Shown here one piece after another: positions 11,196-19,691 of a DNA stretch of 64,000 nt (positions are counted from its first letter, which is position 1; every line of letters starts with the position of its first letter). The DNA comes from Synechococcales cyanobacterium C42_A2020_086. GTDB lineage: Bacteria > Cyanobacteriota > Cyanobacteriia > Elainellales > Elainellaceae. The stretch is taken from NCBI GenBank assembly GCA_015272325.1, contig JACYLU010000015.1, positions 496,001 to 560,000 of the forward strand. Reading direction: 5' to 3'. A model generated the notes under the pieces. It did no database searches. It saw nothing but the letters and a program-made list of their open reading frames with translations, and was not told the origin of the DNA. The translations under genes and the position numbers were made by a program.

Positions 11196-12251
11196 GTGTT
11201 CAATACTTGGCGCGTGCTGCTCGCAGGACTTATTGTCGGTTCCCTGATGACTGCTGGTGTATTCGCAGGATTTCCAGTTATGAGTCACTGGCGGTGGAAA
11301 TGGCCGGATTGGACAGGAATTGGAGAAGAAACGATCACGAAAACGAGTACCGAACGGCTAGGAAGGGAAACAGGGCAAATTCAAAGAGTCACGATTACTG
11401 AAGAACCTGTTCCAGGCAAGAAGCTGTGGGACTTCTTAGAATTATCTGGCACGCTGGCAATCCCGATTCTGCTCGTATATCTGGGTAGCCAAATTCAAAA
11501 GAAAGATCGAGAAATCGCTTACCTTAACCTGCGTGAAGAGGCCCTTCAAGGCTATTTCGATCGCATTTCAGATATCTTGCTTGATCGAAATATCAGCAAT
11601 CTAGGTCCCAACGATTCTTCACTAGACACTATCAAAGATGTTGTGAGAGCACGAACATTGGCGGTGTTGCGAAGACTAGACAACGACGGAGAAAGAAAGG
11701 GCAGCGTTATCCAGTTTCTTGTAGATACAGACTTCCTTGGCATGTACTTGGCACTCGACCTGAGTTTTGCAAACCTTCGAGGGGCTAAGCTCAGAGGTAT
11801 CAATTTGAGCCGTGCTCGTCTGAATAATGCAGATTTGAGCAACGCAGACTTAAGCGGTGCAGACTTAAGTAATGCCAACTTGAGTGATACCAATTTGGAT
11901 CAGGCCAATTTGAGTAATGCCTATCTAACTAGCTCCGAATTGTATAACTCTAGCTTGGTTGAATCCAAGCTCGTCAATGCGGAACTGATCTCTGCAAAAC
12001 TGAAGGGTGCTCAGCTCATTGGAGCCGATTTGAGCAACGCCGATCTCAGCAACGCAGACTTGAGTAACGCCGATCTCAGCAACGCAGACCTGAGTAATGC
12101 CAACTTAAGTGGCGCAGACCTGAGGGCTGCTAAGTTAGCCCTTGCTAAGTTGCATGGAGCTAATTTTGAAGCTGCGGATGTGGAAGGTGTTGCTGGACTT
12201 AAGCCAGAACAAGCGAGTACTGCACGAAACTTGAGATGGCAATCAGGTTAA
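11196..12251 (+). CDS. Membrane-anchored pentapeptide-repeat protein
   Basis: The 351-residue product has two hydrophobic segments (about residues 8-28 and 82-102) separated by a polar loop. A soluble region without repeats follows at about 105-185. From about 188 to 325 it consists of pentapeptide repeats of the A(D/N)LSx type (ADLSNADLSGADLSNANLS), which form a right-handed quadrilateral beta helix. The DNA coding for repeats 12029-12118 is itself nearly identical in tandem, so slippage is likely. It starts with GTG, with AGGAGGG at 11184-11190 fixing that start. Such proteins are common in cyanobacteria, and the role here is unknown. Confidence 0.8.
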   Translation: MFNTWRVLLAGLIVGSLMTAGVFAGFPVMSHWRWKWPDWTGIGEETITKTSTERLGRETGQIQRVTITEEPVPGKKLWDFLELSGTLAIPILLVYLGSQIQKKDREIAYLNLREEALQGYFDRISDILLDRNISNLGPNDSSLDTIKDVVRARTLAVLRRLDNDGERKGSVIQFLVDTDFLGMYLALDLSFANLRGAKLRGINLSRARLNNADLSNADLSGADLSNANLSDTNLDQANLSNAYLTSSELYNSSLVESKLVNAELISAKLKGAQLIGADLSNADLSNADLSNADLSNADLSNANLSGADLRAAKLALAKLHGANFEAADVEGVAGLKPEQASTARNLRWQSG

Positions 12252-12409: not shown

Positions 12410-12412
12410 CAA

Positions 12413-12801
12413 TGGAGCTGACGGGAGTCGAACCCGTGTCCGTCTTGGGTATTAGCACCTTGCTCACTCACAGGTTTAGCTTCTCTGATCCTCGAAGCGG
12501 GAACCGTTTCTTATCCCAAACGGTGGGATGCTCTGGTGAGGTCTTAGCTAGCTGCCGACCAGAGGCGGTGAACTAGCGCATCCGTTGGGGTTAAGTCTGC
12601 AATCCTTAACGGAGTCGAATTACAGACGCTCGAACCTAAGTGAGGTTTATTAAGCTACAGCAACAGCTGCGCTCTTACGAGCAAAAGGTACGATGTTGTT
12701 CGCATGTACACAGTTTGAGCCGGTGATTTACGAGAGGCGACTCACTCTCGACCTGTATCACAAGGACACGTTCGCCAAAACGTCGAAACCGTTACAGCCC
12801 C
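12413..12801 (-). ncRNA. ssrA: Transfer-messenger RNA (tmRNA)
   Basis: This is a one-piece tmRNA of about 389 nt, without the encoded CCA. The 5' end GGGGCTG (complement of 12795-12801) pairs with CAGCTCC (complement of 12414-12420) to make the seven-pair acceptor stem. The 3' end has the tRNA-like T arm with GGGTTCGACTCCC. The messenger part encodes a peptide tag ending in two TAA codons. tmRNA with SmpB rescues stalled ribosomes and tags the nascent chain for proteolysis. Small open frames drawn over this locus on the plus strand are artefacts. Confidence 0.95.
12653..12703 (-). other. tmRNA proteolysis-tag reading frame
   Basis: Read on the minus strand from resume codon GCG (12701-12703), the frame gives ANNIVPFARKSAAVAVA and then TAA TAA (12647-12652). 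The ANNIVPFARK core is typical of cyanobacterial tmRNA tags. The VAVA end differs from the more usual single VAA ending. Confidence 0.92.
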
Positions 12802-13117: not shown

Positions 13118-14425
13118 ATGGCTATCCCTCAGCCCAAACAGGCAAATCGTGTGACTGCTGCGTTGCGCCATTGGTTTCGCCCCCCAACCCCTAAGCTGAA
13201 GCCCATGCTAGGTGCCATTGTCTTGGCAACCAGTGTAGCCGTGACGGCTCTGGGTATCACCAGCTTAACGCAGCCCCAGCCCAGCCCAGCCTCGGACCAT
13301 GACGATGGCGATATTGACGTGCGTAGCCGTGCCCTCAGCCTTACCGATCTTTACGTCTTCCGCGAAATTGATCAAAATCCGAGTGCCCGCGCCGACGATC
13401 TAATTTTTGTCATGAATACCAATCCGCGATCGGTGGCTCGCATTCAGTATTTCTTTAGCAATGAGGCGCAATACGAATTCCGCATCTCGCGAGCGGACAA
13501 CAACGAAGCCACCCCAACGGCCGTACCCGACCTGACGCTGCGGTTCACCTTCAGCCCGCCAGAAGGATCGCCGCGCCGCCAGCGGATGACGATGACCTTG
13601 ATTGAACGCGGTGGCCGCACGATTACCGTCAATCGCACTACGAATAATCGCCCGATTGTAACCACACCACTGGCAACAGCAAGCAGCCCGGTGGTGAATC
13701 AGGTGAACGTGGGTGGCTCCACTGTCAGCGTCTTCGCCGGACTGCGAGAAGACCCCTTCTACTTTGATGTAGAGCAGTTTTTCCGGGTACGCGCTGGGCT
13801 GCTGGGCAGAGGTCCCGCTGTGGGCTTCCGACCGCCAGAAACCGCCGTCGATTTTGCCACCGGCTACAACGTGAATGCAATCGTCGTCCGGGTTCCCCGT
13901 CGCCTACTACAGGGCAACACCAATGCTACGACCTTTGATGCTTGGCTATCGCTGCTGATCAAAGACCCACGCACCGGACGGTTTATGCAAACCGAGCAGT
14001 TGGCACGTCCGGCGGTCAACGAAGCCCTGGTGATTAACCAGAGCACCTATGCCCTCTACAACCGGATCATGCCAACACGGGCTAGCAATGCCGATGTCAA
14101 CCGAATTGCCAACGAAGCCAAAACTGTGCTGCGGGCCTTGGGCAATAACGAAGCTCGCGTTAATGCGCTGCTGGGGGCATTTCTGCCGGACGTGATGCGG
14201 ATCGACACCACCGGACCCAGCGGCTTTGCCAATGCCCTCAACCGCGAAGGCTCTCCCATTCGCGGGCGGTTGCTCGGCGATGATGTGGTAGACATTGCCT
14301 TTGCCGTACTAACCAACGGAGCAGTAACCACCGATAACGTTTCCTACGAAGGCACTCCTGGCAATCCAGCGCAAGGACATGATCCACTGGTGCCCGCATT
14401 TCCCTACTTGGCGCTGCCCAACTAG
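13118..14425 (+). CDS. DUF4331 family exported protein
   Basis: The product has 435 residues from the ATG at 13118, preferred over the upstream GTG at 13016 because GAGGAG lies just before it. After a basic N-terminus, a hydrophobic segment (about residues 32-50) is followed by a Pro/Ser stretch and the acidic motif SDHDDGDID. The rest fits the DUF4331 family, a group of exported beta-rich proteins of unknown function. The body has LTDLYVFREID and a conserved C-terminal DDVVDIAFAVL block. The gene starts a tight run with a TPR gene (14 bp gap) and a NicO transporter gene (15 bp gap). I infer a periplasmic or outer-membrane role linked to the transporter. Confidence 0.78.
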   Translation: MAIPQPKQANRVTAALRHWFRPPTPKLKPMLGAIVLATSVAVTALGITSLTQPQPSPASDHDDGDIDVRSRALSLTDLYVFREIDQNPSARADDLIFVMNTNPRSVARIQYFFSNEAQYEFRISRADNNEATPTAVPDLTLRFTFSPPEGSPRRQRMTMTLIERGGRTITVNRTTNNRPIVTTPLATASSPVVNQVNVGGSTVSVFAGLREDPFYFDVEQFFRVRAGLLGRGPAVGFRPPETAVDFATGYNVNAIVVRVPRRLLQGNTNATTFDAWLSLLIKDPRTGRFMQTEQLARPAVNEALVINQSTYALYNRIMPTRASNADVNRIANEAKTVLRALGNNEARVNALLGAFLPDVMRIDTTGPSGFANALNREGSPIRGRLLGDDVVDIAFAVLTNGAVTTDNVSYEGTPGNPAQGHDPLVPAFPYLALPN

Positions 14426-14439
14426 CCCCGGAGCCTCCC

Positions 14440-15843
14440 ATGAACATTACTCTAGAGAAGCAGCCCTCGCGGCGGGCAGGCGGCAAATCCTGGCGGCTCT
14501 TTTGGCTCGGTGTCCCCCTTGTTAGTCTTGGACTGTGGCTCAGCCGCTCCGATGTGCCCATGCGCCTCCAAGCCTGGAGATCTCGCACCTTTAGCCCCTT
14601 GGAAGCACCCTACCGCTATCCGTTCTTGGATTCGCGGTCCGGTAACTCCGATCCCGCTGTAGCCATTCAGCAGCAGATTGCCCACTTTCAGGCACGAGTC
14701 CGACAGCATCCCGAGAGCGGTTTGGAGCAGGCAGCCCTGGCAGCCGCCTATTTCAAAATGGGGCGCACAACCGGTGAGGGCAACTGGTATCTGCTGGCAG
14801 AGCAAACGGCGCAGCAGTCCTGGGCCAAGCTGCCCTTTGAAAATACCGAAGCTCTGGCAGTCTTGGCGCGAGTAGCCGAGGCACGACACGACTTTCCGAC
14901 CGCGCTACGATTAGCCAGTGACCTGAAGCCCGAGGACGCGGCCAGCCTCCGCATTACCGCCAACTTAGCCATGGGCAATCTCGCAGCAGCCCATCAGGCG
15001 GCAACCGAACTGGTAGACTTGACCCTCAGCTTCAATGCGTTCATGCTGCTAGCCATGGTGCAGCAGGCTCAAGGGGACAACGAGGCAGCACTGCAAAGCT
15101 TTCGCCATGCGCTGGAGGTAGAAGAAGCCGGTGATCTTAGCAATTCAGCTCGTCTGCGGACGCTACTCGGTCGCTTTTTTGCTGAACAAGGTGATCTCAG
15201 CCAAGCCCAGGCCTTCTACCAGGAGGCCTTGCAGATTCTACCTCACTATCCACTGGCGCTGCTGAACTTAGCTCAGTTAGAACTGCGTCAGGACAACTTG
15301 GCGACTGCCGAGCGCTATTATGCCCAGCTCTCGCGAACCGGCTCTAGCCCCTATTTACCCTTAATTCGACGCGGACAAGCTCAAATTCAGTACAGGCGAG
15401 GCAATACCCAAGCGGCAAATGCCCGATGGTCCGAGGCGGAAATGCTGCTGCGGCAAACGGCTGCTGCGGGTGATGCTACCTTTGGACACCAACGCGACTT
15501 GGCCCGGCTGCTGCTAGAACGCGGTCGCTCTCAGGATCGGGCAGAAGCCCTAGCCTTGATGCAGACCGAGGTGACGATCCGACGTGACGCCAGCACCCTC
15601 GATACCTATGCCTGGGCCTTGGCTAGCAACGGCCGTTGGCTGGAAGCGCAGCAAGTCATTCAGGAAGCTTTGGCGCTGGGCAGCCGTGATGCCGCTCTGG
15701 TCTACCGTGCCAGCACGATTGAGCAGGCGTTGGGCAACTCATCATCTGCGCAGGCGTATCTGCAAAGGGCCTGGATGATTGACCCGCAGTTGAACGAACA
15801 AGCGATCGCGACACAGCATCTCAGTGTTGGATTAGGAGAATAA
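14440..15843 (+). CDS. TPR-repeat protein, membrane-anchored
   Basis: The 467-residue product has a single N-terminal hydrophobic segment (residues 20-38) and then tetratricopeptide helices through to the end. Clear units have the W/L-G-A-A-P pattern, such as EAALQSFRHALEVEEAG, SQAQAFYQEALQILP and LEAQQVIQEALALG. TPR domains bind partner proteins, so this is likely an envelope scaffold facing the periplasm. It has GGAG eight bases before the ATG. It sits between the DUF4331 and NicO genes with gaps of 14 and 15 bp, so translation is probably coupled. No catalytic motif is seen. Confidence 0.82.
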   Translation: MNITLEKQPSRRAGGKSWRLFWLGVPLVSLGLWLSRSDVPMRLQAWRSRTFSPLEAPYRYPFLDSRSGNSDPAVAIQQQIAHFQARVRQHPESGLEQAALAAAYFKMGRTTGEGNWYLLAEQTAQQSWAKLPFENTEALAVLARVAEARHDFPTALRLASDLKPEDAASLRITANLAMGNLAAAHQAATELVDLTLSFNAFMLLAMVQQAQGDNEAALQSFRHALEVEEAGDLSNSARLRTLLGRFFAEQGDLSQAQAFYQEALQILPHYPLALLNLAQLELRQDNLATAERYYAQLSRTGSSPYLPLIRRGQAQIQYRRGNTQAANARWSEAEMLLRQTAAAGDATFGHQRDLARLLLERGRSQDRAEALALMQTEVTIRRDASTLDTYAWALASNGRWLEAQQVIQEALALGSRDAALVYRASTIEQALGNSSSAQAYLQRAWMIDPQLNEQAIATQHLSVGLGE

Positions 15844-15858
15844 CTGGAGGATGCAGCA

Positions 15859-17529
15859 ATGAAACAGCTGATGACAGTCTTAGCCAACATCTGGTTGCGA
15901 CAGGGGGGGAATCATCGACGACGGAGAAGCATACTGCTGGGCTGCTGGTCTTGCAGCATAGCCATCTGCCTCAGTGTAGTGACCGCCACCCCCAGCCAAG
16001 CTCACTGGGCAGATATGGCGGCTGCCGAAATTGTGGTTGGCGATACCCAAACCCAGATGACCCTGACCTTTCCAACCGGACTAGTGGAGTTTGCCGACCG
16101 CGACGGCAACGGGCAACTCACCGCTGCCGAGGTTGACGCCCAGAAGACGCAGCTTGCATCCTACCTAGGGCAACAGATTCGCCTCAGCAATGGGCAGCAG
16201 CCCGGTCACCTTACCGTAGCATCCGTCGAGCAGGCGACTGTCCCTGTTGTCGGACAAACTGCTCCCAATACCCACAGCACCCTGCGCCTGATCTATGCCT
16301 GGCCCCAGCCGGTGCGAGCACTGCAAATTCACTACCAGCTATTTCTGCCGGGCGTCTCTACCGCGAGTTGTCTCGCCACAATTTTACAAGGAGAGCAGTT
16401 GCGAACTGTGGTCTTTACTCCTCGTCAGCCAACGCTGGCCCTGACGCCCGGTTTACCCAGCTTCACTAGCGGTGGATTGCTGCTAGCGATGGCTGGGGCA
16501 TTGGTCTGGGGGGCAATGCATTCTCTGTCGCCCGGCCACGGCAAAATCTTGGTCGCCGCCTATTTGATCGGTAGCCACGCTACAGCAGGTCATGCCTTAT
16601 TCCTGGCGCTGACGACAGCCCTCACCCACACTATCGGCGTCTTTGCCTTGGGACTGATTGCTCTATTGGCTACCCAATATATCCTACCCGAACAGCTTTA
16701 TCCCTGGATGAGCTTGCTTTCTGGGCTGCTCGTCGCTGGGATCGGCATGCGTCTGCTTCTCAATCGATTGCCCCGGCAGTTGAGGAAATTCTCACCTCTC
16801 TCCCGTTTCCGCCCCCATGCCGAGTCTGCTGAGCATGATCATGCGTCTGCTTTGCGACCGTCATTAGCTGCTGTATCTTCAGATAATCCTGTATCTTCAG
16901 ATAATCATATAGCCGCTTCTAGATGCCCTGATAATCATCATAAACCTCACACTCATGATCACTATATTCATAACCACCATCACTGTAGAACCCAAACCCA
17001 CAGCCATCATATACATAGTGAGATACATACTAAGAATTGTCATGACAGTCATGAGCATCATCATATCCATCATAAAGATAAACATTTAGCTGAGCATCGT
17101 ATAGTGATTCAAGCTAGTACGGAATTAGATAATCATAGTCATTCTGAATCTGAGCACTTTAATCATTTTCATTCCCATTTACCTCCGGGAGGAGACGGTT
17201 CACCCATTACGTGGCGCAGTCTGCTAATACTGGGAATTTCTGGTGGGTTGGTTCCCTGTCCGGCGGCATTGGTGCTGCTATTAAGTTGTCTAGCATTGGG
17301 GAAGGTTGCCTGGGGCTTAACGCTGCTGTTGGCCTTTAGTTTGGGTTTGGCGGGTGTTTTGGTAGGCTTTGGGTTAACCCTTGTCTATGCCAAGCGATTG
17401 TTTTATCGGTTACCTAACTCCGTGCAGCCCATGCGATTCTTACCGGTACTGGGTGCTGTCCTGATTACCGTGATGGGATGGGGAATTGCCACCCGAGCGC
17501 TCATCCAAATTGCCAGTGGTGCAGCTTGA
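15859..17529 (+). CDS. NicO-family nickel/cobalt transporter with EF-hand-like motif and histidine-rich loop
   Basis: The 556-residue membrane protein begins with a signal peptide (cleavage likely after SQA at about 48). An extracytoplasmic domain follows, with an EF-hand-like loop DRDGNGQLTAAEVD at 80-93. The NicO/RcnA core has HSLSPGHGK near 222-230 and the ALTHTIGVFALG helix. Between about residues 320 and 440 lies a loop with dozens of His residues (HDHYIHNHHH and similar), and the last three helices include SGGLVPCPAALVLLLS. Known NicO members move Ni or Co out of the cytosol; His loops bind the metal. GGAGG precedes the ATG. The loop is encoded by markedly AT-rich DNA. Confidence 0.85.
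   Translation: MKQLMTVLANIWLRQGGNHRRRRSILLGCWSCSIAICLSVVTATPSQAHWADMAAAEIVVGDTQTQMTLTFPTGLVEFADRDGNGQLTAAEVDAQKTQLASYLGQQIRLSNGQQPGHLTVASVEQATVPVVGQTAPNTHSTLRLIYAWPQPVRALQIHYQLFLPGVSTASCLATILQGEQLRTVVFTPRQPTLALTPGLPSFTSGGLLLAMAGALVWGAMHSLSPGHGKILVAAYLIGSHATAGHALFLALTTALTHTIGVFALGLIALLATQYILPEQLYPWMSLLSGLLVAGIGMRLLLNRLPRQLRKFSPLSRFRPHAESAEHDHASALRPSLAAVSSDNPVSSDNHIAASRCPDNHHKPHTHDHYIHNHHHCRTQTHSHHIHSEIHTKNCHDSHEHHHIHHKDKHLAEHRIVIQASTELDNHSHSESEHFNHFHSHLPPGGDGSPITWRSLLILGISGGLVPCPAALVLLLSCLALGKVAWGLTLLLAFSLGLAGVLVGFGLTLVYAKRLFYRLPNSVQPMRFLPVLGAVLITVMGWGIATRALIQIASGAA
16873..16906. repeat. In-frame 18-bp duplication at the start of the His-rich loop
   Basis: GTATCTTCAGATAATC occurs at 16873-16888 and 16891-16906, giving VSSDNP then VSSDNH. 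It marks the left boundary of the AT-rich His-loop coding segment. Confidence 0.8.
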
Positions 17530-17569: not shown

Positions 17570-17953
17570 ATGCAATCGAGTCAGCTTGTAATCGTCACTA
17601 TTACCTTGCTGAGCGTGCTTTCAGCAGGCAGCACAGAATGGTCTGTGAAACATGCTTTTGCTCAATCTATCGATCAATCAGGCAATCAATCTATTGATCA
17701 ATCGGGCAATCAGTCTATCGATCGAATCAACGAAAGTGATTTCGTATGCTACATGCAAACAGCGGAGGGCAATTTACTCGATCTAACGAGTATATGCGGA
17801 ACTCGACGACCTGTCGCAAATATGCAACCTGCGAGTATCATTAACATCAGTCCAATCAGCAACTTGGGAGGGTTGTCCAGTTTGCAGAACCCGGATGGCA
17901 CCCCCTGTTTTGGGTTAGATGCTCAAGGTCGTCCTTGTGCCTCTGCTCGCTGA
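17570..17953 (+). CDS. Small secreted cysteine-containing protein
   Basis: The product has 127 residues from the ATG at 17570, 40 bp after the NicO gene. It has a signal peptide (hydrophobic residues 7-21, cleavage probably after AFA at 31). A repeated segment QSIDQSGN, QSIDQSGN, QSIDRIN follows, then a conserved-looking module SDFVCYMQTAEGNLLDLTSIC and a C-terminal PCFGLDAQGRPC. The C-x-MQ-x6-LDLTSIC pattern recurs in small exported cyanobacterial proteins of unknown function; I cannot name a family. Four Cys residues could form two disulfides. A longer frame from 17486 would overlap the NicO gene and lacks signal-peptide logic. Confidence 0.68.
   Translation: MQSSQLVIVTITLLSVLSAGSTEWSVKHAFAQSIDQSGNQSIDQSGNQSIDRINESDFVCYMQTAEGNLLDLTSICGTRRPVANMQPASIINISPISNLGGLSSLQNPDGTPCFGLDAQGRPCASAR
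17663..17725 (+). repeat. Tandem 24-bp coding repeats (2.5 copies)
   Basis: Units begin at 17663, 17687 and 17711 and encode QSIDQSGN twice and then QSIDRIN. Copies differ by two or three third-position changes, so the duplication is not brand new. Confidence 0.85.
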
Positions 17954-17996: not shown

Positions 17997-19691
17997 ATGC
18001 AAACAAATGATGTTCCGCTCTCTGCTTGGCAGCAATTGAAGCAACAGCAAATTAGCTGCGACCAGGCCCTGCAACTCCTGATTGATCCCCAGGGCAATGT
18101 CAATCTGGGTTTGCTAGATCGCGAAGTGAGTTTGCGGTTCTGGCGCGGCTTCAGCGATCGCGAATGGTTACCGCCGCTGATTCCACTGCTGCTGTGGCGC
18201 AATTGCTATTACTTGGGTAGCCCCGTGCCCATCTCACGGCAAATGGTGCAGCAGCTTGTCGATCGACTCGGCAGCGAGATTCAGATTGTCACCATCACCG
18301 AAAAAAGCTACCGCTACTGGCGACGGATTCAGCAGCTGGAAACGGCCCGCATCAGCGCGACTCCGATTCTTAATCCCTTAACGGGGGAAGTGGAGCAGGA
18401 AGACATTACCGAGATTGCCGAACTGCACTTAGCCCAGGTTGACAACCAGATCGAGCGGATCAAGGCTCTGATCTCTAGCGCTTTGCGCAATCGTGCTAGC
18501 GATATCCATCTCGCGCCCTCTGCCGAAGGGCTACAGGTGCGTTTCCGCATCGATGGTATTCTCCGCCATGTCACTACTTTGCCTCCCGAAGTCAGCCGCA
18601 AAGTGATTGTGGCGCTGAAGGTCATGTGCGAGATGGACATTGCCGAGAGCCGCCGCCCGCAAGATGGCCGCATTGGCGAGCAATATCTGACGAATCAGGA
18701 AGAACAGGGTCTGGATATGCGGGTGAGCACGCTGCCTTGCATCAGTGGGCGCAAAGGTGAACCCGGCGAAAAGGCAGTCTTGCGCCTGTTGCGGCAGCAG
18801 AATTCCTTCGCGACTATTGCCGATCTAGGATTTTCAGATCGCACCCGCGCCATCTACGAAGGCTGGCTACAGGAGCCGCAGGGCATGATCATCTTTACGG
18901 GTCCTACCGGATCGGGCAAAACTAGCACCCTCTACACCAGCCTGCAAGCTATTTCCACCGAGTCGGTGAATATCGTCACCGTTGAAGATCCTGTGGAATA
19001 TGTGCTGCCCAATATCACCCAAACCCAGGTTCATGAAGCGGCAGGTATGACCTTCGCTGCCGGACTGCGGGCAATCTTGCGTCAAGATCCCGACATCATC
19101 ATGGTGGGAGAAATCCGCGACGCTGAAACCGCCGAAACCGCTGTACGAGCCGCCCTGACTGGGCACTTGGTTCTGACAACCCTGCACACCAACGATGCCA
19201 TTGGCGCTATCCCTCGCCTAAAAGACATCGGTCCCGATCCGGGTTTGATTAGCGATGCCCTGCTCGGTATTGTGGCTCAGCGGCTAGTGCGGAAAGTATG
19301 CCCCCACTGCGCTGAACCCTATACACCTACCCCCGCCGACCTGAAGCTGCTGGGGCTAACCCCCGAGGAAGCCAATTCCCCGCACTGGCGCAAGGGCAAG
19401 GGCTGCCCCCACTGCTTCCAGTCCGGATATCTAGGGCGCGAGGCTGTAATTGAGCTACTCAATGTCGATGACGTAGTGCGGCAAATTATCTACGAAGGCA
19501 CTATCACCCAACTGCGACGCTACCTACAAGACATCCGCTTCGACTCCTTCCGCATTGCTGCCATTGCGAAAGTCACAGCGGGTATTACTACAGTGGAAGA
19601 AGTCCGGCGGGTGCTGCCCCACAGCGCGTTGTACCATGCGTCGCTTCCCGATCCGCGGTTAAATGCTCCGAAACGGCTCAATGCGGTGTGA
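17997..19691 (+). CDS. GspE/PilB-family secretion ATPase
   Basis: The 564-residue hexameric ATPase belongs to the type II secretion / type IV pilus family. The N-terminal part (1-150) includes an abbreviated GspE-N-like region. The catalytic core has Walker A GPTGSGKTS at about 302-310, the Asp box EDPVEY, Walker B IIMVGEIRDAET and the His box TTLHTND. A tetracysteine zinc motif CPHC...CPHC lies near 435-475. It is shorter than a typical cyanobacterial PilB (about 670 residues) and no pilC, pilT or pseudopilin gene is adjacent, so it is either a second PilB paralogue or a GspE. It lies 43 bp after the small secreted gene on the same strand. Confidence 0.85.
   Translation: MQTNDVPLSAWQQLKQQQISCDQALQLLIDPQGNVNLGLLDREVSLRFWRGFSDREWLPPLIPLLLWRNCYYLGSPVPISRQMVQQLVDRLGSEIQIVTITEKSYRYWRRIQQLETARISATPILNPLTGEVEQEDITEIAELHLAQVDNQIERIKALISSALRNRASDIHLAPSAEGLQVRFRIDGILRHVTTLPPEVSRKVIVALKVMCEMDIAESRRPQDGRIGEQYLTNQEEQGLDMRVSTLPCISGRKGEPGEKAVLRLLRQQNSFATIADLGFSDRTRAIYEGWLQEPQGMIIFTGPTGSGKTSTLYTSLQAISTESVNIVTVEDPVEYVLPNITQTQVHEAAGMTFAAGLRAILRQDPDIIMVGEIRDAETAETAVRAALTGHLVLTTLHTNDAIGAIPRLKDIGPDPGLISDALLGIVAQRLVRKVCPHCAEPYTPTPADLKLLGLTPEEANSPHWRKGKGCPHCFQSGYLGREAVIELLNVDDVVRQIIYEGTITQLRRYLQDIRFDSFRIAAIAKVTAGITTVEEVRRVLPHSALYHASLPDPRLNAPKRLNAV

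Follow-up and report, generated by a model that had tools for sequence, protein, structure and literature searches.

A DUF4331, TPR and NicO-type permease gene run in a cyanobacterial genome: a candidate extracytoplasmic metal capture-and-transfer module

A 64,000-nucleotide stretch of the genome of Synechococcales cyanobacterium C42_A2020_086 (contig JACYLU010000015.1, positions 496,001 to 560,000 of the forward strand; hereafter the window, with coordinates counted from its first letter) carries three closely spaced genes for an exported DUF4331 protein, a tetratricopeptide repeat (TPR) protein and a NicO-type permease. We propose, at a probability of about 0.5, that they encode a module for extracytoplasmic capture and transfer of a transition metal, Ni2+ being the likeliest and Co2+, Cu2+ and Zn2+ possible; the more general claim, that it handles some transition metal, we regard as likely. 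Export of DUF4331 and cleavage of its signal peptide would expose a Ser-x-His tripeptide, which together with the free amino group would form a square-planar metal site of the amino-terminal Cu(II)- and Ni(II)-binding (ATCUN) type. The TPR protein, probably membrane-anchored, would hold DUF4331 and the permease together, and the metal would pass from DUF4331 to the permease's outward, anglerase-like beta domain, with its predicted N-terminal histidine (His1), and then through the NicO/HupE/NiCoT channel, probably into the cell rather than out of it. We infer metal binding, both mature N-termini, the protein contacts, the identity of the metal and its direction from the gene arrangement, the residue conservation and a predicted fold match. 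The features concerned are the following (a slash marks a predicted cleavage site):

13118..14425, plus strand: exported DUF4331 (PF14224) protein, 435 residues (Pfam, ribosome-binding site, homologues)
13118..13291, plus strand: predicted DUF4331 signal peptide (...PQPSPA/SDH)
13292..13300, plus strand: Ser-Asp-His, predicted mature DUF4331 N-terminus (X-X-His, ATCUN-type), with Ser and His conserved; first residue of the Pfam profile match
14440..15843, plus strand: TPR protein with N-terminal hydrophobic segment (likely membrane anchor), 467 residues (Pfam)
15859..17529, plus strand: NicO-type permease with signal peptide and outward ectodomain, 556 residues (Pfam, NCBIfam)
16003..16467, plus strand: permease ectodomain, predicted His1 start (SQA/HWADM), anglerase/ZrgA/PA4063-like fold (alignment, model)
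about 16096..16131, plus strand: EF-hand-like loop DRDGNGQLTAAE in the ectodomain, positions 32 and 43 invariant
16519..16545, plus strand: permease motif HSLSPGHGK in the first transmembrane segment (read from the sequence)
about 16813..17187, plus strand: His-rich loop between the transmembrane halves of the permease, short or missing in many relatives

Gene layout and co-occurrence across genomes

An earlier note on this DNA had described three genes with gaps of 14 and 15 bp, and open reading frame (ORF) calls and Pfam matches place them exactly so, on the plus strand (14425/14440 and 15843/15859). GTG 13016 is an alternative opening of the first ORF; ATG 13118, closely preceded by GAGGAG, was taken as the start because of this ribosome-binding site and of the homologues, and agrees with the start given in the earlier note. 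The DUF4331 protein covers its whole Pfam profile (1-421 of 421) at 195.4 bits against a cut-off of 27, and the permease reaches 39.5 bits against NicO (PF03824; cut-off 27.7) and also matches DsbD_2. Several TPR families pass their Pfam cut-offs in the middle protein, whose single N-terminal hydrophobic segment (mean 1.27), as found in the window's group, is weaker than in most relatives. Outside that close group, 9 of 13 scanned middle proteins pass a Pfam TPR cut-off and the other four (L060, L108, L121, L122; L-numbers label fetched loci) give weak TPR matches only. Identity of the TPR gene with PrsT, the TPR protein of XrtA/PEP-CTERM systems (TIGR02917), was rejected at 47.6 bits against a cut-off of 312.2.

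Co-occurrence was followed by fetching flanks, scoring all their ORFs against profiles built up from the window proteins and clustering the neighbours. The window's genome has one DUF4331 and one match to the window permease. Across the phylum (Cyanobacteriota), PF14224 occurs in 19 of 244 genomes and the permease query matched in 29 of 238, including 18 of the 19 with DUF4331 (a few genomes may belong to only one of the two samples). The trio forms one same-strand run in 16 of these 19, its order permuted in one (L076), and DUF4331 and TPR genes form such a run in 18; where the trio is missing, the permease lies on another contig (L063/L079), the contig measures 5.9 kb (L073) or DUF4331 stands alone (L077). 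In a set of 29 loci the trio is present in 21 (20 with a NIC-type permease and L059 with a NiCoT-like one); in six others the contig ends behind DUF4331 or TPR, and the true exceptions are L052, without a permease, and L056, with a truncated DUF4331. Among 111 genomes of Deinococcota, ten carry PF14224 (two being those of L052 and L053), with the trio in seven (L111 with a 755-bp gap) and the DUF4331-TPR pair in nine, the tenth being cut by a contig end; the trio is found also in Actinomycetota, Pseudomonadota and Candidatus Eremiobacter.

On plasmids, 21 of the listed annotated records were examined. DUF4331, a middle gene and a permease stand together in nine (Nostoc, Streptomyces, a Streptomycetaceae bacterium, two Embleya, Lichenicola, a Comamonadaceae bacterium, Marinobacter and Pseudoalteromonas), with a class F sortase gene in between in the Streptomycetaceae bacterium; two (Miltoncostaea, Adhaeribacter) carry DUF4331 and TPR, and one (Rhizobium) DUF4331 and HupE/UreJ. 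Seen from the permease side, there are 14 plasmid records whose HupE/UreJ protein matches 80% or more of the length of the Marinobacter query, and 11 of them have DUF4331 within 2 kb on the same strand. These neighbourhood counts point to DUF4331 and TPR as the tighter pair and to a permease able to stand alone. With the trio in 16 and the pair in 18 of the 19 phylum genomes, the three families occur together more often than by chance, the check that the earlier note had proposed, and the recurrence of the same gene run in five phyla supports its view of one machine.

Predicted N-termini, permease families and ectodomain

The DUF4331 alignment, whose rows were not pre-selected for Ser-x-His and from which nine duplicate loci were left out, shows Ser59 and His61 (window numbering; columns 59-61) in 81 of 81 covering rows (81 ORFs, 80 distinct sequences), and the serine is preceded by Ala in 70 rows, by Ser in 5, by Gly in 1 and by the start codon in the remaining 5. 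Eleven further rows are gapped at the motif: seven are C-terminal halves of split genes, and the other four (L096, L122, L127, L130) have it in the raw sequence. Asp77 and Tyr119 (83/83 covering rows) as well as G208 and F214 (82/82) are likewise invariant. Exported members begin with SDHDDG, SDHQD, SSHREAP and similar stretches right behind the signal peptide, and seven short cytosolic members (L078, L096, L097, L099, L101, L130, L131) open with start codon-Ser-x-His, five of them (L096, L097, L099, L130, L131) at the record's annotated start; in two of the seven the local alignment begins later, so that they fall outside the 81-row count. Methionine before serine is usually removed by methionine aminopeptidase. 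Judging from sequence, either signal-peptide cleavage or methionine removal would thus expose an X-X-His N-terminus of the ATCUN type, suited to Ni or Cu. Under a crude cleavage rule applied to 67 exported DUF4331 proteins and 225 other signal-bearing ORFs, Ser-x-His falls at an allowed site in 58 of the 67, two of the nine misses being mis-picked positions, and in the background of 225 a histidine stands at +3 in 4 and at +1 in 6.

An AlphaFold2 model of the DUF4331 protein (predicted local distance difference test, pLDDT, 76.6; predicted template modelling score, pTM, 0.76) gave no Foldseek match at E <= 0.001, and its structural alignment returned nothing but antibody-like beta-sandwiches, at Z 6.6 or less. 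Designed helical repeats, retrieved when the profile was compared with solved structures, cover a helical stretch only and were taken as an artefact. In L073, L075, L076, L119 and L120 the gene is split into an N-terminal half with Ser-x-His and a lipoprotein-like C-terminal half; in L115 such a lipoprotein-like C-terminal half stands by itself, with a TPR gene behind it.

Several families occupy the permease slot. Pfam assigns NicO to the linked permeases of the window, L068, L102, L129 and L119, HupE_UreJ_2 (PF13795) to those of Lichenicola, Marinobacter, Pseudoalteromonas, L060 and L061 (the trio permeases of three Pseudomonadota, L121, L123 and L125, and of two deep-branching genomes of the window's phylum), and HupE_UreJ to that of Rhizobium. 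The L059 permease of Candidatus Eremiobacter, which passes the NicO cut-off (80 bits against 27.7) and falls below those of TIGR00802 (HoxN/HupN/NixA; 83.9 against 333) and NicT (87.4 against 450), is for these reasons termed NiCoT-like; it contains RHGADPDH, which we take to be the NiCoT signature. HupE and NiCoT import Ni and Co. Since various Ni/Co transporter families share one slot, the cargo is arguably a Ni/Co-type ion; PMC2667541 describes both HupE/UreJ and NiCoT as transporters of Ni and Co.

All 53 linked long permeases have a predicted His1 (HWAD, HPLG, HKPSD, HSASS, HQLST and similar; SQA/HWADM in the window), in L053, L100 and L129 after correction of an over-long ORF start, with the second fragment of the frameshifted L049 permease and nine duplicate loci left out of the count; the short Rhizobium HupE also reads SASA/H. 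A model of the 155-residue ectodomain (pLDDT 79.8, pTM 0.79) retrieved ZrgA first, 9GCE and PA4063 with Foldseek (E 2.3e-6 to 4.7e-4), and VIA-align gave Z 9.7 against the Cu-bound Ang-1 of 9GCE (root-mean-square deviation 3.9, 135 aligned), a tied 9.6 against ZrgA, 8.6-9.0 against PA4063 and 5.5 for the next fold. Invariant in 20 of 20 ectodomains are, among others, His1, Trp2, Asp4, Glu9, Asp32, Glu43, His91 and Cys123. The EF-hand-like loop that the earlier note had claimed is present, its first Asp and last Glu invariant in 20/20 and its middle positions varying, and a similar match in the HupE/UreJ-2 relative L060 shows that it is not confined to the NicO form. The His-rich loop, also claimed there, exists in the window and is not a defining trait, because six Deinococcota permeases are much shorter (354-391 residues against 556). 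By inference from the Ni/Co-type families in the slot, the match of the ectodomain to metal-binding domains and the N-terminal motifs of two proteins, we retain the idea of an envelope metal system.

Weighing the proposal and its alternatives

Several observations weigh against such a module. Ser-x-His is the first allowed cleavage site in only 14 of the 67 exported DUF4331 proteins, and a shift by one residue would destroy the ATCUN site; the models have low confidence at just these ends, in the first residues of DUF4331 and in residues 1-3 of the ectodomain. The NiCoT-like L059 permease has neither ectodomain nor His1. His1 is moreover not tied to DUF4331 neighbours: of 11 permease-like rows not adjoining DUF4331, six have an ectodomain, too few to weigh, and His1 is present in four of them and absent in L081 and L085, while L133 and L134 have it as well. 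Of the three HupE-bearing plasmid records other than the 11 above, two were examined, from Deinococcus proteolyticus and Pseudoalteromonas shioyasakiensis, and both lack DUF4331 and TPR. Conversely, DUF4331 lies beside type II secretion genes and without a permease in 4 of the 21 plasmid records, all from Rhodobacterales (L124, L126, L127, L132; two Sulfitobacter, Jannaschia and Paracoccus), where it may be a substrate of that system, and has no such partner in five others (for one of them, L101, the record is unannotated and the call comes from ORF clusters alone), so that DUF4331 can occur without TPR and permease. As for the metal, the ectodomain fold is matched as well by zinc proteins as by the Cu/Ni protein, and permease family names do not prove the ion transported. 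Rfam at its gathering score returned no match in eight relatives and only a transfer-messenger RNA (tmRNA) near the window, hence no Ni riboswitch in those relatives. Urease matches occur in 16 of 19 module genomes and in 138 of 238 genomes across the phylum (weak ones in many of these 138), and urease is listed for about 100 of the 111 members of the window's class; being near universal there, it leaves the presence of the module uninformative on nickel need.

The permease could instead be an RcnA-like Ni/Co exporter, with DUF4331 as the acceptor to which the ion, once expelled, would stay bound within the envelope or outside it. The efflux family PRK10019 (NF007454) is the best NCBIfam match of the window permease, of two Streptomycetaceae permeases and of L068, and this RcnA similarity favours export over uptake; exporters have His-rich loops, and pairs of extracytoplasmic function (ECF) sigma and anti-sigma factors near some loci would suit a stress response. 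Every PRK10019 match, however, stays below the 195-bit cut-off (110.9 in the window), NicO is replaced in its slot by HupE and NiCoT, the Ni/Co transporters cited above, and the fold relatives of the ectodomain, Ang-1, ZrgA and PA4063, are placed in uptake or trafficking. Uptake is favoured because of these substitutes and fold relatives, we consider export unlikely, and the earlier note's suggestion of metal export receives no specific support.

Two other explanations give DUF4331 a different role. It might itself be a secreted metalloenzyme with Ser-x-His in its active site, its metal delivered by permease and TPR protein; invariant residues well beyond the motif (D77, Y119, G208, F214) and loci with DUF4331 alone or beside type II secretion genes would suit a product with its own job, yet neither the fold search nor the comparison with solved structures yielded a relative apart from the artefact above, and no substrate gene recurs among the clustered neighbours; we consider this reading unlikely. 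Poorer still are the prospects of a module unrelated to metals, in which Ser-x-His would be a folding or export signature and the permease clan would move something else. Clan members with other cargo exist, and the window permease does match DsbD_2; against this, Ser-x-His stands at the predicted N-terminus of exported and cytosolic members alike, and in the linked long permeases a predicted N-terminal His sits on a fold common to metal-binding proteins.

Neighbouring genes and relation to known systems

Upstream of the module in the window lie a pentapeptide-repeat protein gene on the same strand (11196-12251; Pfam) and a tmRNA gene (12410-12801, minus strand; tag ANNIVPFARKSAAVAVA). On its 3' side stand the following:

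17570..17953, plus strand: small exported protein without Pfam match, found only in the window's close relatives and probably outside the module core
17997-19691: GspE/PilB-like ATPase, directly 3' of the module also in L032, L033, L035-L040 and L049; this adjacency is limited to close relatives

Elsewhere, clustering placed an ECF sigma factor and a ChrR-like cupin anti-sigma factor divergently upstream of DUF4331 in eight cyanobacterial loci (L042, L044, L055, L057, L064, L065, L067, L068; Pfam on L068 and L057), and Pseudoalteromonas has an ECF sigma factor with an RskA-type anti-sigma factor (L125:6597-7810); such pairs are possible regulators of the module. The locus of the related P. shioyasakiensis (L134) resembles that of strain CF6-2 (L125) and keeps the anti-sigma factor and HupE, with its predicted His1; the genes for the sigma factor, for DUF4331, for the Ig-like protein and for TPR are missing from it, which makes the two a natural pair for comparison. 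Class F sortase genes adjoin DUF4331 in Streptomycetaceae (L129:9794-10537, L102:16251-16828), and a STAND/AAA-type ATPase family lies near the module in seven loci (L050, L069, L095, L107, L112, L113, L114) spanning the window's phylum and Deinococcota (clustering; Pfam on L069 only).

Among known systems the nearest are the anglerases, in which Ang-1 or Ang-2 domains are fused to HupE/UreJ-2 permeases (PMC12537917, PDB 9GCE); RbAng-1a is reported to have dissociation constants of 74 nM for Cu2+ and 220 nM for Ni2+, and the Ang domain is proposed to fish for the metal and feed the permease (PMC12537917). The window permease shares with them a signal peptide, a predicted His directly behind it and an outward beta domain, with the Ang-1 fold in our model, fused to a Ni/Co-type permease. 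It differs in belonging to NicO, with no Pfam match to PF13795 (HupE/UreJ-2) at E <= 0.001, and in its TPR partner, TPR proteins not being mentioned in the main text of that paper. RcnA resembles it in its permease core and in the HxLxPGHGK motif and His-rich loop, both present in the window (HSLSPGHGK). In contrast, the window permease scores below the curated RcnA cut-off, as given above, and has a signal peptide and an ectodomain, which RcnA is not known to have. ZrgA of V. cholerae and PA4063 of P. aeruginosa share the ectodomain fold (Z 8.6-9.6) and are zinc-binding periplasmic proteins not fused to a NicO permease. Like ATCUN proteins, DUF4331 is predicted to have a histidine third from its free N-terminus; unlike in others, the motif runs through the whole family, Ser1 is fixed and, as far as the sequences tell, there are seemingly two maturation routes.

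A literature search for DUF4331, PF14224 and the motif, which did not cover subscription papers and preprints, found no paper. An outside metal-binding domain joined to a permease is already known as a kind of system; the DUF4331 partner, the conserved Ser-x-His and a NicO-type anglerase-like protein are new. We tentatively suggest, at slightly below even odds, a wider role in which DUF4331 proteins make up a large and hitherto undescribed class of metal-binding proteins in at least five phyla, defined by an invariant mature Ser-x-His that would arise outside the cell through signal peptidase or inside it through methionine removal, and act with TPR proteins as a capture arm for permeases of the anglerase type. 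A multi-phylum family of unknown function would thereby gain a concrete and cheaply testable one, metal binding by its first three residues, and the anglerase architecture would come to include NicO permeases and a system of three genes. Bacteria, the proposal suggests, may hand metal ions on outside the membrane by means of paired N-terminal chelators.

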